From: Candidatus Hydrogenedentota bacterium
GTDB lineage: Bacteria; Hydrogenedentota; Hydrogenedentia; Hydrogenedentales; CAITNO01
Reading direction: 5' to 3'
NCBI GenBank assembly: GCA_012730045.1
Contig: JAAYBR010000108.1
Location: 1-64,000 of the forward strand
Length of the DNA: 64,000 nucleotides
The notes under the pieces are model-generated. The model was not told where the DNA came from. It saw nothing but the letters and a program-made list of their open reading frames with translations, and did not search any database. Shown piece by piece: positions 7,045-21,958 of the stretch (position 1 is the stretch's first letter; each line of letters starts with the position of its first letter). The translations under genes were made by a program, and so were the position numbers.

Positions 7045-7072
7045 TTTACAATCTGGGAAATGGGGGTATAAT
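7045..7072 (+). promoter_or_regulatory. Sigma-70-type promoter of the FG-GAP lipoprotein gene
   Basis: A -35 box TTTACA (7045-7050), a 16-bp spacer and a perfect -10 box TATAAT (7067-7072). Transcription would start near 7079, about 60 nt before the ATG at 7140. Confidence 0.75.
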
Positions 7073-7139
7073 GGCGGGATGCAGGCCGGGCAGGGGACGC
7101 GGCGCGTCTCCAGCCGGGCAGAACATGGGAGAATGCCCG

Positions 7140-9410
7140 ATGAACCAGGAAACGCGTCTCCGCAGTTTCCGGGGACGGTTCTCCGTCCTCACGGCGGGGG
7201 CGGCCTGTCTGGCCGCCGCGCTGCTGACCGGGTGCCCGACGGGCACCGCCTACGGCCCCCTGAGCAACTCGGACCTCCGCCTGTTCCAGAGCCGCTATGT
7301 GTACGGCGTGTCCGGCGAGGCCACGGACGTGGCGGCGGCGGACTTCAACGGCGACAACATCCCGGACCTGGCGGCGATCAACAACGACCAGCAGAACGTG
7401 TCAGTGCTCCTGTCGGAGGGGGCAACGAAGTATGTGAAGGCCAAGGACTACGACCTGGGGGACACGCCGAGCGCCCTGGCCGTGGGCGACACCAACGGCG
7501 ACGGGCGCCCGGACATCCTGGTCTGCAACGAGACCTTTGGCCAGGTGACCGTGCTCACGTCGCGGGGCGACGGCGAGTTCAACGAGCCGGCGCTGTGGGA
7601 GCTGCCCGCGGGCGCGACGCCGCGCGGTCTGGCGGTGGCGGACGTCAACGGCGACGGGCTGCCGGACATTGTCACGGCGAACGCCGGCCTGAACTCAGTT
7701 TCGGTGCTGCTGGGGACGGCGGAGGGCGGGTTTGAGGCGGCGCGCTCCTTCCCCGCGGGAACCGGCCCCCGCTGGGTGATCGCCGCGGACCTGACCGGGG
7801 ACGGCCAGACGGACGTCCTCAGCGTCAACCGCGACTCCAACGACCTCTCGCTCTTTATGCGGTCGGGGGCCAACCTGAACAACGCGGTGTCCCTGCGGTG
7901 CGGCCTGGCGCCGCGCATGGCGGCGGCGGGCGACCTGAACGGCGACGGGCTGCCGGACCTGGTGGTGTCGAACACGGGCACCAACGACCTCTCGGTGCTG
8001 CTGGGACAGGGCGGGGGCGCCTTCGCGGCGGAACGCCGCGTGGCCCTTGGCAAGCCGCCGACGCGCCTTTCCCTGGGCGATTTCGACCGCGACGGCCGCC
8101 TGGACGCCGCCGCGCTGCTCTTCGACTCGGCCGACACCGGGTCGCTGGGCGTGGTGGCGGTGCTGTTGGGCGACGGCGCGGGCGGCTTCGCCGCGCCGCT
8201 CTTCTTCGGGTCGGGCTGGCAGTCCTTCGGCCTGTGCGCCGCCGACATGGACCTGGACGGCGCCCCGGACCTCGTCACGGCGGACACCTCCATGAAGGCC
8301 GTGGCGCTGCTTCGCGGGCGCGGCGACGGCACCTTCGAGAGCGACCGGCGCTTCGCCACGGGCGTGGTCCCCTCGGCGGGCGTGACGGGCGACTTCAACG
8401 GCGACGGCCACACCGACGTGCTGGTGGCGAACGCCGGCGGCGGGTCGCTGGTGTTCATGGCGGGCGACGGCGCGGGCCGTTTCACCGCGCAGCCCGCGCC
8501 CGTGCCCGTGGGCGGCATCCCCATCGCCCTGGCCGCCGCGGACCTCAACGACGACGACGCGCCCGACGTGGTGGTGTCCCTCAAGGGGCAGAAGACCGCC
8601 CTGCTCCTGCTCGGCTCCGAAACGGGGCAGTTTGTCGCGGGGCCCGCGGTCAACCTGCTGCCCGACGGGTCGGCGTACCTGCCCATCTCGTATTCGCTCA
8701 CCCTGGGCGACGTGAACAACGACGGGCGGCCGGACCTGCTCTCGGCGAACAGCGGGGCCGACAGTGTCAGCGTGGCCCTGGGCCGCGGCGACGGCACCTT
8801 CGCCGCCCCGGCGGAGATGCGCAACATCAGCTACCCCCTCCGCGCGGGTCTGGCCGACCTCGACCGCGACGGCACCCCCGACATCATCGCCACCAGCTCG
8901 CGCGACCCGGAGCAGTCGTCGGACCAGGCGGAGCCGCGCATTGTCCGGCTGCTGGGCATCGGCGACGGCACCTTCAACACGGAAAGCATGCTCCGCGTGG
9001 CCACGGGTTCCTATCCGGCGGACCTGGCCCTCGGCGACCCCAACGGCGACGGGCGGACCGACGCCGTGACCGCGCACCCCGGCAGCGACGGCGTCTACAT
9101 CGCCGCGGGCGCCCAGGGCGGCCGCCTGGCCAAGGGCGAGAAGCTCGGCGTCGGCGACCTCCCCGTCGCCGTGCTCCTGCCCGACGTGAACGCCGACGGC
9201 AAGGCGGACATCCTCACCACCCACGCCGCGGGCTACGCCGTGGTGCGGATCAGCCGCGGCGCAGGCCGCTACGACGCGTCCCGCCACTTCCTCACCGGCG
9301 ACACCGCGCTGGTGAGCTTCTACCAGGACGTGAACGGCGACCAGATCCCCGATTTCATCACCCTCAACCGCGGCACCTCGGACCTCTCCGTGCTCCTCGG
9401 CCAGCGGTAG
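7140..9410 (+). CDS. FG-GAP/VCBS-repeat lipoprotein
   Basis: A 756-aa secreted lipoprotein. The signal peptide is basic (residues 1-13), then hydrophobic, and ends in the lipobox LLTGC with the lipidated cysteine at position 32. The rest is a run of about 14 FG-GAP/VCBS units, each centred on a calcium-loop motif of the type D-x-NGDG-x-PD (for example DFNGDNIPDL, DVNGDGLPDI, DVNNDGRPDL). These form beta-propeller blades like those of integrin alpha chains. Family members act in adhesion, carbohydrate or protein binding, or surface display; the ligand is unknown. The start at 7140 was chosen because it gives a proper signal peptide. It has its own strong promoter and is monocistronic. Its 3' end converges on the GxxExxY unit. 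Confidence 0.9.
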   Translation: MNQETRLRSFRGRFSVLTAGAACLAAALLTGCPTGTAYGPLSNSDLRLFQSRYVYGVSGEATDVAAADFNGDNIPDLAAINNDQQNVSVLLSEGATKYVKAKDYDLGDTPSALAVGDTNGDGRPDILVCNETFGQVTVLTSRGDGEFNEPALWELPAGATPRGLAVADVNGDGLPDIVTANAGLNSVSVLLGTAEGGFEAARSFPAGTGPRWVIAADLTGDGQTDVLSVNRDSNDLSLFMRSGANLNNAVSLRCGLAPRMAAAGDLNGDGLPDLVVSNTGTNDLSVLLGQGGGAFAAERRVALGKPPTRLSLGDFDRDGRLDAAALLFDSADTGSLGVVAVLLGDGAGGFAAPLFFGSGWQSFGLCAADMDLDGAPDLVTADTSMKAVALLRGRGDGTFESDRRFATGVVPSAGVTGDFNGDGHTDVLVANAGGGSLVFMAGDGAGRFTAQPAPVPVGGIPIALAAADLNDDDAPDVVVSLKGQKTALLLLGSETGQFVAGPAVNLLPDGSAYLPISYSLTLGDVNNDGRPDLLSANSGADSVSVALGRGDGTFAAPAEMRNISYPLRAGLADLDRDGTPDIIATSSRDPEQSSDQAEPRIVRLLGIGDGTFNTESMLRVATGSYPADLALGDPNGDGRTDAVTAHPGSDGVYIAAGAQGGRLAKGEKLGVGDLPVAVLLPDVNADGKADILTTHAAGYAVVRISRGAGRYDASRHFLTGDTALVSFYQDVNGDQIPDFITLNRGTSDLSVLLGQR

Positions 9411-9433: not shown

Positions 9434-9900
9434 TTCAACGCAGAGACGCGGAGAACGCGGAGGGCGCGGAGAGTCAGATCAGGCTGTTCACGATGCGCTT
9501 GACGCCGTCCACCAGCAGGGGTTCGTGGAAGTTGATATTCAGCCCCAGCCGGACTCCTGTGAGCCGCAGATACGTGAGCGTCTTGGCGTGGTCCTTCTTG
9601 GTCATCTCCTCCTTCGCCTTCACATCAACAATCACAAGACCTTCGACAATCAGGTCCAGCCTCAGATCGGTGGAGAGTTTCACGCCCTTGTAGGCAATGG
9701 GAACCGCTTTCTGGCGTTCAAATGCCATGCCGCGTAGGTGCAACTCATGGCACAGCGCCTCCTCATAAACCCCTTCAAGCAGTCCCGGCCCCAGCGCGCG
9801 ATGAACCTCAATCGCCGCACCAATGACGCGCTCGGAAACCTCATTCTCCCGCATGCCTTCCCCTCCGCGGTCTTTGCGCTCTCTGCGTCTCTGCGTTGAA
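9434..9900. mobile_element. 467-bp unit with inverted ends carrying a GxxExxY gene
   Basis: The left end (9434-9472) and the reverse complement of the right end (9861-9900) both begin TTCAACGCAGAGACGC. They continue as related 8-9-bp-period sequence. Between them lies a single gene (9474-9854) filling nearly the whole unit. The unit sits between two convergent gene ends: 23 bp after the FG-GAP stop and 2 bp before the stop of the WbsX-like gene. No transposase is present. Calling it mobile is inference from the inverted ends, the position, and similar but unrelated-ended units at 20961-21958. Confidence 0.5.
9474..9854 (-). CDS. GxxExxY protein (PD-(D/E)XK nuclease superfamily)
   Basis: A 126-aa protein with the diagnostic G24-x-x-E27-x-x-Y30 motif (GLLEGVY). 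A restriction-endonuclease-like core follows: Asp67 (RLDLIV), Asp77 and Lys79 (IVDVKA), matching the PD-(D/E)XK pattern of PDDEXK_3. Full family length is about 120-130 aa, so this copy looks intact. Its start lies just inside the right inverted end and its stop just inside the left end. The gene therefore appears to travel with, or be defined by, the flanking repeats. The biological role of GxxExxY proteins is not established. Their frequent multi-copy occurrence and nuclease fold suggest a mobile-element or DNA-processing role (inference). Confidence 0.88.
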   Translation of the reverse strand: MRENEVSERVIGAAIEVHRALGPGLLEGVYEEALCHELHLRGMAFERQKAVPIAYKGVKLSTDLRLDLIVEGLVIVDVKAKEEMTKKDHAKTLTYLRLTGVRLGLNINFHEPLLVDGVKRIVNSLI

Positions 9901-9902
9901 TC

Positions 9903-11090
9903 TTATTTCCCGCCGAAGACCTCGCGGAGGGCGTCGAGGTAGCCGGTGCCGTTCTTGGTGTCGGGCTCCAGGTAGCTGCCCTCGGTCCACTCGTTCCAGG
10001 CGTTGATGGTGAGGATGCGGCGGTCGGCGGGCTGGGTGTCGAGGAAGGCGCGGGCGCGGATGAGGGCCTCCTTGAACGCCGCCGGGGTGTTCCCCACAAC
10101 CACGGGGGTGTAGGGGTAGCCGCGGTTCTCGAAGACGTCGGACTGGGTGGTGCGCGGCGACGAGTCCCAGCCCATGCTCACGTTGGGGTAGTAGGGCACG
10201 GGCCACCGCTTGACGAAGTCGGGCCAGAGGGCGGCGGACTTCTCCATCCACGGCGCGTACTCCGCCGCCGGGAAGCCCTCGGGCACCACGTGGTGGATCC
10301 AGCAGTAGGAGGTGACGGAGTCCATGCCGAGTTTGCCGAGCAGCTCCTCGGGGTTCTTCACCGTCCGCTCGTTCGGCAGCACCTGCACCCCCCACATGAC
10401 GGCGTTCAGGTGGAGCTCGCCGACGCCGGCCTTCCGGGCGCGGTCGCGGAAGTCGTCGAGCGCGGCGCGGGTCGCCTCCACGCCGCCGAGCCCCTGGATG
10501 AGCGTCATCAGCTCGTAGACGGAGAAGTAGGGCTTGCCGTCAACGCGCCAGTAGTTGGGCTGGGAGAAGTAGGTCTGGATGATGTGATCCGTGGCCTTCA
10601 CGAAGGTCTCCCGCGTGACCGGGCCGGGGTGCAGGGTCTCGGGCTTCACGCCGGCCTTCGCGGGAAAAATCTCGATCCAGTCGTGGTTGGCCCACATGAG
10701 GGCGAACTTGATCCGGTCGCGGTTGGGCGCCTTGAGAAGCCCCTTCTCCAGCCCGTCGCCGATGAAGAGCCCGGTGTCGTGCCAGTACCAGTCGTAGAGG
10801 AACACGTCCACGCCGCTGTCGGCGGCGGCGTCTATCTTCCGCGCCATGACGGCGGGGTCCGACTCGTCCTCGTAGCCCCAGGCGGGCACCTTGGGCTGGT
10901 CGTGGCCGGGGAAGCGCGGCGTGGCCGCCTTCGCCAGGTTCCACTCGGTCCAGTCCCTCCCGTAGCGTTCGCTGTACACGGGGTTCGGATGGTAGCTGGG
11001 GAAGTAGTAGGCGGCGACCTCGTAGGCCTGGGCGGACAGGGCGCAGGCGCCCGCAAGCATCAGGACGGACCAGTTAATGGCGTTCTTCAT
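9903..11090 (-). CDS. WbsX-like / GH99-like secreted protein
   Basis: A 395-aa protein beginning with a signal peptide (basic start, hydrophobic core to about residue 22, ending ALSAQA). It then has a TIM-barrel domain of the WbsX (Glyco_tran_WbsX) type, related to GH99. Typical segments are YYFPSYHPNP, RDWTEWNL, YDWYWHD, and near the C-terminus INAWNEWTEGSYLEPD. Most WbsX proteins lie in O-antigen clusters; this exported version more likely acts on extracellular or periplasmic mannose-type glycans (inference). The ATG at 11090 overlaps the ispH stop (ATGA), so the two are translationally coupled although functionally unrelated. The right end of the GxxExxY unit is 2 bp past its stop codon. 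Confidence 0.85.
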   Translation of the reverse strand: MKNAINWSVLMLAGACALSAQAYEVAAYYFPSYHPNPVYSERYGRDWTEWNLAKAATPRFPGHDQPKVPAWGYEDESDPAVMARKIDAAADSGVDVFLYDWYWHDTGLFIGDGLEKGLLKAPNRDRIKFALMWANHDWIEIFPAKAGVKPETLHPGPVTRETFVKATDHIIQTYFSQPNYWRVDGKPYFSVYELMTLIQGLGGVEATRAALDDFRDRARKAGVGELHLNAVMWGVQVLPNERTVKNPEELLGKLGMDSVTSYCWIHHVVPEGFPAAEYAPWMEKSAALWPDFVKRWPVPYYPNVSMGWDSSPRTTQSDVFENRGYPYTPVVVGNTPAAFKEALIRARAFLDTQPADRRILTINAWNEWTEGSYLEPDTKNGTGYLDALREVFGGK

Positions 11091-20960: not shown

Positions 20961-21436
20961 TCCGCAGAGGACGCAGATTTGCGCAGAGGGGGGGAGTGGA
21001 TCGCTCCGCGCGCGAAGGGGCCGAGAGGTGTCTCCCCCATTGCCGGAGAAACCGCCGCTGTTGCCGGTTTCCAAAGCGCCGAAGGCGCGGCACAAGATAG
21101 CCCGGGGCGTGAGCCCCGGGAAGGGGGAAACGATCATCTCCCACAGAGCGCCGAAGGCGCGGCACATGCGCGGAAGGCCTTTGTGCCGCCCCTTCGGGGC
21201 TCCGGGGAGGGGGGGGGCGGTTTCCCGGGGCTCACGCCCCGGGCTATTTTGTGGCGCGCTTTCAGCGCTTGGGAATGCCGCGCGCCGCGAACTCCCGTTG
21301 GAGTGCCTCCTGGCACACCGCCTCCAGAAACCCGCAGCCCAGCTCCGAATGGACCGCCATCGCCACGCCAATAATGGCATAGGTTTCCGGATCCCGCTGC
21401 TCTTTCCCATCTGCGCAAATCTGCGTCATCTGCGGA
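20961..21436. mobile_element. Inverted-end element R1 with truncated GxxExxY gene
   Basis: A 476-bp unit with 26-bp terminal inverted repeats that match at 24 of 26 positions. The left end starts TCCGCAGAGGACGCAG and the right end is its near complement at 21411-21436. CGCAG recurs every 9 bp inside the ends. The interior holds G-rich filler, nested hairpins of the CCCGGGGCTCACGCCCCGGG type, and a truncated GxxExxY reading frame. It is repeated almost identically as R2 at 21482. Confidence 0.6.
21262..21429 (-). pseudogene. Truncated GxxExxY protein remnant in R1
   Basis: A 55-codon frame that begins with an ATG inside the terminal inverted repeat and keeps only the N-terminal third of the family. 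Landmarks are [20 protein letters not shown]. The motif tyrosine is changed to cysteine in this copy (GFLEAVC). The frame stops where a nested hairpin repeat begins, so the nuclease core is lost. Confidence 0.7.
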
Positions 21437-21462
21437 TCACTCTTCCTCCAGGCCCTCCGCCG
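21437..21462 (-). pseudogene. Duplicated 3' end of the GH78 gene
   Basis: This 26-bp segment encodes AEGLEEE-stop on the minus strand, matching the real GH78 gene end at 21994-22018 in about 23 of 25 positions. It shows that the R unit and the adjoining gene end were duplicated together. Confidence 0.65.
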
Positions 21463-21481
21463 CCGCCCTTTCTTTTTTATG

Positions 21482-21958
21482 TCCGCAGCGGACGCAGATT
21501 TGCGCAGAGTGGGGGGGAGTGGATCGCTCCGCGCGCGAAGGGGCCGAGAGGTGTCTCCCCCATTGCCGGAGAAACCGCCGCTGTTGCCGGCTTCCAAAGC
21601 GCCGAAGGCGCGGCACAAGATAGCCCGGGGCGTGAGCCCCGGGAAGGGGGAAACGATCATCTCCCACAGAGCGCCGAAGGCGCGGCATATGCGCGGAAGG
21701 CCTTTGTGCCGCCCCTTCGGGGCTCCGGGGAGGGGGGGGCGGTTTCCCGGGGCTCACGCCCCGGGCTATTCTGTGGCGCGCTTTCAGCGCTTGGGAATGC
21801 CGCGCGCCGCGAACTCCCGTTGGAGCGCCTCCTGGTACACCGCCTCCAGAAACCCGCACCCCAGCTCGGAATGGACCGCCATCGCCGCGCCAATAATGGC
21901 ATAGGTCTCCGGATCCCGCTGCTCGTTCCCATCTGCGCAAATCTGCGTCATCTGCGGA
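21482..21958. mobile_element. Inverted-end element R2 with truncated GxxExxY gene
   Basis: A second copy of R1, about 521 bp downstream and about 97% identical by eye, with the same 26-bp inverted ends (21482-21507 and 21933-21958). A partial extra end-like sequence (about 21976-21994) lies between it and the GH78 stop codon. R1 and R2 form a tandem duplication, not two separate insertions. Confidence 0.6.
21784..21951 (-). pseudogene. Truncated GxxExxY protein remnant in R2
   Basis: The same 55-codon remnant as in R1, but with the family motif intact (GFLEAVY). It again begins inside the inverted end and stops at the nested hairpin repeat, so it cannot encode the PD-(D/E)XK core. Confidence 0.7.

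Follow-up and report, generated by a model that had tools for sequence, protein, structure and literature searches.

In insertion sequences with terminal inverted repeats, a small gene fills the space between the ends, and MITEs are their gene-less derivatives. In REPIN-RAYT systems, the RAYT enzyme is specific for its own repeat (PMC8266576), and genomes that carry the enzyme gene have more of the repeats (PMC8049555). The intervening sequences of 23S rRNA, in turn, are removed by RNase III (PMC4990558). Here, these systems are compared with a unit built around a GxxExxY gene, located in a 64,000-nucleotide stretch of a Candidatus Hydrogenedentota genome (hereafter the window).

As in insertion sequences and MITEs, the GxxExxY gene fills the space between inverted ends, and gene-less derivatives exist. 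The unit differs in having no transposase domain, no near-identical copies and no observed target duplication, and its ends vary from copy to copy, tracking the protein clade. Likewise, the 23S rRNA intervening sequences carrying S23/IVP (TIGR02436, PF05635) are units of about 400 bp with one small gene and inverted ends, but their protein is unrelated, GxxExxY is not found in rRNA here, and its repeat unit measures 8–9 bp as compared to 7 bp. With REPIN-RAYT, the unit shares the combination of one enzyme gene and inverted repeat pairs, the dispersed, intergenic, gene-less hairpins, the chromosomal location, and array counts that are higher with the matching GxxExxY clade (uncorrected for ancestry). 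In contrast, REPIN-RAYT employs an HUH tyrosine transposase and GTAG-tagged palindromes, whereas the present unit combines a PD-(D/E)XK nuclease with arrays of 8–9-bp direct repeats headed TTCAAC or TCACC. Moreover, GxxExxY occurs with zero to ten genes per genome (40 relatives from the order of the window), and repeats of different types coexist there. As neither the enzyme class nor the GTAG-tagged palindrome was found, the GxxExxY unit is not a REPtron. By analogy, the GxxExxY–array pair looks like a partnership of the REPIN-RAYT type in which neither the enzyme nor the repeats are related to those of REPIN-RAYT.

The unit in the window and its nuclease

The unit is composed of one gene and two arms, and lies between two convergent neighbours:

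7071–9410, plus strand: neighbouring FG-GAP repeat protein, its stop codon 23 bp from the left arm
9434–9471, plus strand: left inverted arm, TTCAA followed by an array of four CGC(A/G)GAG units with start-to-start distances of 8, 9 and 9
9474–9854, minus strand: GxxExxY PD-(D/E)XK nuclease gene (profile match), 126 aa, with D67, D77, K79 and Y95
9863–9900, minus strand: right inverted arm, unit type as in the left arm, read on the minus strand
9903–11090, minus strand: neighbouring Glyco_tran_WbsX protein, its stop codon 2 bp from the right arm

The gene product matches TIGR04256 with 134.2 bits (cut-off 35) and PF13366 with 127.6 bits (cut-off 22). The arms are 38 nt each and 84% complementary; as a pair they score 23.0, while the best of 200 shuffles reaches 13.5. 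Profile scores and arm score thus confirm the GxxExxY gene between inverted ends proposed in the initial annotation, and the three residues named there as nuclease core (Asp67, Asp77 and Lys79) are all present in the protein. Read from the outside inwards, both arms give TTCAACGCAGAGACGC, with four 7-mers (CGCAGAG and the variants CGCGGAG and CGCAAAG) at offsets 0, 8, 17 and 26. The inverted ends had been described as touching the stop codons of both neighbours. This holds on the right, 2 bp from the WbsX stop, but not on the left, where 23 bp follow the FG-GAP stop, and the arms are inverted arrays of 8–9-bp direct repeats rather than plain terminal repeats. The general build of an arm is three or four 7-bp cores at a spacing of 8–9 bp, and two inverted arms are able to form a hairpin.

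The AlphaFold2 model of the protein, calculated from an alignment of 90 sequences, shows a PD-(D/E)XK fold with a pLDDT of 95.6. The best solved relatives found with Foldseek are Cas4 SSO0001, the Argonaute-associated Cas4 (ACE1), LHK-Exo, RecE and lambda exonuclease (E 2e-3 to 2e-2, prob up to 0.99). Across the family, G24, E27, D67 and Y95 never vary, and Y30, (D/E)77, K79, Q91, N108 and F109 are nearly invariant. Most members share with Cas4, RecB, RecE and lambda exonuclease not only the order of the fold but also D67, (D/E)77-x-K79 and Q91-x3-Y95. Within this QxxxY motif, Q91 is conserved to at least 90%, whereas the clade of the window carries K91; a further difference is the minimal size, a single domain of 126 residues. 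As far as the model goes, GxxExxY is a small putative nuclease of the Cas4/RecB/lambda-exonuclease type with the PD-(D/E)XK core fold in place. A sequence search of the PDB gave no clear relative. Only PF13366 and TIGR04256 were matched, and no domain of a transposase or HUH tyrosine transposase was detected; the next, weak Pfam hit (E 0.038) is UPF0102, which we take to be Holliday-junction-resolvase-like and treat as a lead only. Among the PADLOC anti-phage defence profiles, no family was matched at E up to 1. Open-access full texts contain only two mentions of GxxExxY, both incidental, and a search of the open-access literature for PDDEXK_3 found nothing.

A similar unit with broken genes had been noted at 20961–21958. 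Arrays and gene remnants are indeed present, albeit in two near-identical tandem units (about 20961–21436 and 21483–21958, each with CGCAGAT-type arrays) and not in a single one:

20961–20988, plus strand: left array of the first remnant unit, CGCAGAT/CGCAGAG type
21259–21387, minus strand: first GxxExxY remnant, profile positions 2–44, one TGA
21409–21436, minus strand: right array of the first remnant unit
21483–21510, plus strand: left array of the second remnant unit
21781–21909, minus strand: second GxxExxY remnant, profile positions 2–44, one TGA
21931–21958, minus strand: right array of the second remnant unit

A different dispersed repeat (GCGCCGAAGGCGCGGCAC ... TAGCCCGGGGCGTGAGCCCCGGG) occupies 21000–21290 and 21530–21810, in place of most of the remnant gene.

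Inverted arrays and nuclease clades in other genomes

The genome of the window holds five GxxExxY loci and two remnants, all with tight inverted arrays. The kind of array differs from locus to locus: the units are CACGGAG, GGACAGGAT, CACGGAA and CGCAGAG, plus another CACGGAG form with TCA at its head, while the remnants carry CGCAGAT. Within the order of the window, matched inverted arrays, nearly always of short units, were found in 66 of 74 loci (72 distinct places), where an inverted pair was accepted if it scored above all 100 shuffles. In 28 genomes of the order that had not been used before, 43 of 52 loci carried them. The loci from other phyla (Chloroflexota, Planctomycetota, Verrucomicrobia, Acidobacteria, Bacteroidota, Geobacteraceae, Cyanobacteria, Pseudomonadota and others) gave 52/78 among those testable, with 26/78 below the strict threshold, as compared to 2/139 for control intervals shifted by 900 bp at the same loci. 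For WbsX control genes, the inverted pair passed in 1/15. It should be noted that nested and decayed arms are undercounted, a consequence of calling the arms by local alignment. Judged from these alignments, GxxExxY genes are demonstrably accompanied by inverted arrays as a rule, in the order and in other phyla, and the opposite case considered in the initial annotation, that most GxxExxY genes in relatives lack flanking inverted repeats, does not apply to the loci examined.

GxxExxY genes are widespread among environmental bacteria, with at least 583 confirmed stretches in a scan of 84,980 species; Flavobacterium, Niveibacterium and Cnuella takakiae are among the carriers. Conversely, none was found in 50,697 phage records and eight in 72,556 plasmids, so the family is not common on phages or plasmids. 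A search of viral contigs yielded no relative of the CACGGAA clade and one of the CRCAGAT clade. This near absence from phages and plasmids fits a chromosomal element.

The unit varies between loci (CACGGAG, CRCAGAT, CACGGAA, ACAGGAT and others), whereas both arms of one locus agree. Units were compared by arm alignment, as a strict regular expression overlooks many unit types. Protein identity and arm similarity are correlated with a Mantel r of 0.37 (0/500 permutations as high), and the same value was obtained with the comparison limited to pairs of one locus from the order and one from another phylum (0/1000 permutations as high). Cross-phylum pairs with a protein identity of 0.25–0.3 have a mean arm similarity of 5.9, and this increases to 12.0 for pairs at 0.6–0.8. 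On the nuclease tree, the unit's final base (G, A or T) requires 5 changes, compared to a minimum of 19 and a mean of 22 in shuffled data, and the full unit type 44 changes (shuffled minimum 63, mean 71). For the other phyla alone, the second base, which is the only varying two-state trait, requires 13 changes and is not clearly better than the shuffled data (minimum 11, mean 16).

For an out-of-sample prediction, the unit of the nearest labelled protein was assigned to later loci, 33 of which had a readable unit. As the phylum-wide search gave 68 genomes, all from the order of the window, the blind test was performed on the 28 unused ones. The prediction was exact in 22/33 cases, as compared to 2.8 by chance, and the last base was correct in 33/33 (12.9 by chance), including 19/19 where a base other than G was predicted; since all of these loci belong to the order, the figures are not independent of ancestry, although the protein identity to the neighbour was often only 0.48–0.7. 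At the level of sequence, the nuclease clade is thus predictive of the repeat unit, and the correlation could in part mirror co-inheritance of clade and array. That each GxxExxY branch has its own repeat across many phyla suggests a little-noticed genome-spreading repeat with a dedicated enzyme.

Gene-less hairpins, interior turnover and competing explanations

Arrays are also found apart from the gene. In 1.10 Mb of the genome of the window, there are 37 arrays with three or more units, as compared to none in each of three shuffles; the commonest start-to-start spacing is 8,9 (22 cases), followed by 9,9 (9 cases). The CRCRRAGNCRCRRAGNNCRCRRAG pattern reaches as many as 44 occurrences in a single relative genome, while its reversed control is absent from all 40 genomes. 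CRCRRAG arrays reach a median of 13 in genomes with the matching-clade nuclease (GPG motif) and a median of 0, with a maximum of 7, in genomes without it (Mann–Whitney p 2e-5, ancestry of the genomes uncorrected and two arrays contributed by the gene's own arms). Their counts correlate weakly with genes of other clades.

The gene-less units are intergenic and occur on either strand. Minimal hairpins consist of two arrays and a short loop (L357 and L358), and others of head-to-head array pairs about 20 bp apart. At one locus (L354), an ACAGGAT-type hairpin is nested in a CACGAAG-type hairpin, and in another genome (G012) one gene-less element, an array with about 110 bp, is present at three loci with 85–87% identity and unrelated flanks. 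As single strands, such hairpins fold much better than shuffles, as illustrated by L358 (–40.2 kcal/mol, compared to a shuffle mean of –11.5 kcal/mol). The repeats CACGGAGACACGGAG and CGCAGATGACGCAGAT are scattered through these genomes, and six such repeat sequences, searched as strings, had no match in open-access full texts. As a separate observation, tandem 135-bp repeats with a CACGGAG-type array in each point to local amplification of an array unit at L366 (G003:C138:11930-12430).

The sister species G001 allows for a comparison of orthologous sites. At L002, where the flanking probes are 93% identical, G001 has both hairpin arms but is without about 400 bp including the whole gene. At the window junction, the outer 14 bp of the right arm are kept in G001; CTCTGCGTTGAATCTT is retained beside WbsX, and the remainder consists of other repeats and a CACAAAG array. 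The FG-GAP side of G001 lies on a separate contig (L114, G001:C541), where a group II intron-like sequence that includes a reading frame for a reverse transcriptase is located downstream of the FG-GAP gene. The gene-bearing locus L003 is common to both sister species, and some solo arrays hold the same place in both. Most of the compared sites are conserved or rearranged, and L002 differs by its interior only. The gene is thus not always present at the orthologous junctions examined (window junction and L002), at odds with the stable inheritance that the initial annotation had considered as the opposing case. The outgroups of L002 are uninformative as to gain or loss because the neighbours are not adjacent there. 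The differences in gene and interior between retained ends, together with the conserved arrays, indicate that interiors are gained or lost and that arrays are long-lived. Such turnover could reflect homing or gene conversion, transposition of the hairpin, or recombinational loss.

Neither a target duplication nor a clean empty site was observed in comparison with the sister species at L002, C2, C62, C111, C143, C29 and C59, and recent identical copies that bear the gene were likewise not found. A simple insertion sequence with duplications was rejected on account of the missing duplications and empty sites. The earlier suggestion of a self-mobilising or repeat-spreading element is accordingly split: repeat-spreading is well supported, while self-mobilisation stays at the level of a suggestion, as neither target duplications, fully empty sites nor recent identical copies were found.

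In combination, the matched arrays, the link between clade and unit, the blind prediction, the clade-linked counts, the gene-less copies, L002, the conserved active site and the folding argue for the explanation we favour overall, with moderate confidence: a nuclease gene with its own recognition repeats that spread in a REPIN-RAYT-like manner. Nuclease and arrays are very probably paired as a functional unit. The nuclease would recognise its array, either folded into a hairpin in single-stranded DNA or as neighbouring direct repeats in the duplex, and cut within it or next to it. With another copy as the repair template, the array hairpins would then spread genome-wide, and the gene could move between, or vanish from, resident hairpins. 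That the spread is driven by the nuclease appears slightly likelier than the contrary.

Alternatively, another system may make and spread the hairpins, with GxxExxY genes as cargo lodging or homing in them. A passenger of this kind would suit the presence or absence of the gene between kept hairpins at L002, the replaced interior next to the retained outer end at the window junction in G001, and the excess of hairpins over genes, which is most apparent in G002 with 44 arrays and one GxxExxY gene. We consider it unlikely, as the protein clade predicts the repeat sequence, across phyla too, array counts track the matching clade, and no other gene was seen to be common to the hairpins. Less probable still is a role at the RNA level, in which the arms form the stem of a processed transcript, the protein acts on RNA or its own message, and spread in DNA is incidental. 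The arms are clade-specific direct-repeat arrays, which is more than pairing alone requires, the gene-less units are intergenic on either strand, and the fold relatives are DNA nucleases; this outweighs the potential for long stems and the identical layout of the 23S intervening-sequence protein family, the rRNA elements of which are excised by RNase III (PMC4990558). A stable host gene, its arms acting as terminators or as sites of autoregulation, would be in line with the convergent junction, with L003 being common to two sister species, and with arrays conserved in place. Copy numbers of zero to ten per genome, the missing gene at orthologous junctions and the existence of gene-less, nested and copied units disfavour this reading to the point that it is highly improbable. 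Finally, an artefact of chance or composition, conceivable for short, purine-rich units, has a negligible probability, being refuted by the shuffles, the shifted intervals, the control genes and the reversed pattern (0 in 40 genomes).

The pairing of nuclease and array provides one explanation for two observations, the GxxExxY genes without an assigned role and the unexplained dispersed repeats, and makes the prediction from protein to repeat testable. If true, it would add a second, independent enzyme lineage to the question, raised by REPIN-RAYT, of what allows hairpin repeats to persist in the chromosomes of bacteria, and would offer a naturally occurring set of small nucleases whose partner sequences are known.

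A second protein family with the same layout

Genes for the four-helix-bundle protein TIGR02436 are flanked by inverted arrays in 19 of 22 testable loci from the order of the window (L048, L049 and L292–L313). The array units, among them GGGTCTA, GTCTGGA and GGCTTTA, are 7 bp long in 17/18 cases by self-match (0.81 at lag 7), compared to 8–9 bp for GxxExxY. The occurrence of one layout with two unrelated proteins and different unit lengths argues that the layout is a real class. Tentatively, and with somewhat less than even confidence, the two families may represent chromosomal elements of a new class, either selfish or domesticated, in which small proteins are locked to short-unit inverted arrays by a readable code (PD-(D/E)XK with 8–9 bp, four-helix bundle with 7 bp) and the hairpins would be maintained and spread unlike with any known transposase.

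A figure legend in a large CRISPR discovery screen names "23S rRNA IVP" among its domain abbreviations (PMC10910872). Inverted short-unit arrays around 23S rRNA IVP genes could be mistaken for CRISPR-like arrays. Some of the TIGR02436 units look like telomere repeats. In addition, GTCCGAC-type repeats of 7–10 bp were observed near weak TIGR02436 hits in long open frames, at L053 (contig C29 of the genome of the window, about 30757) and at L051; these are possibly coding repeats or related arrays.
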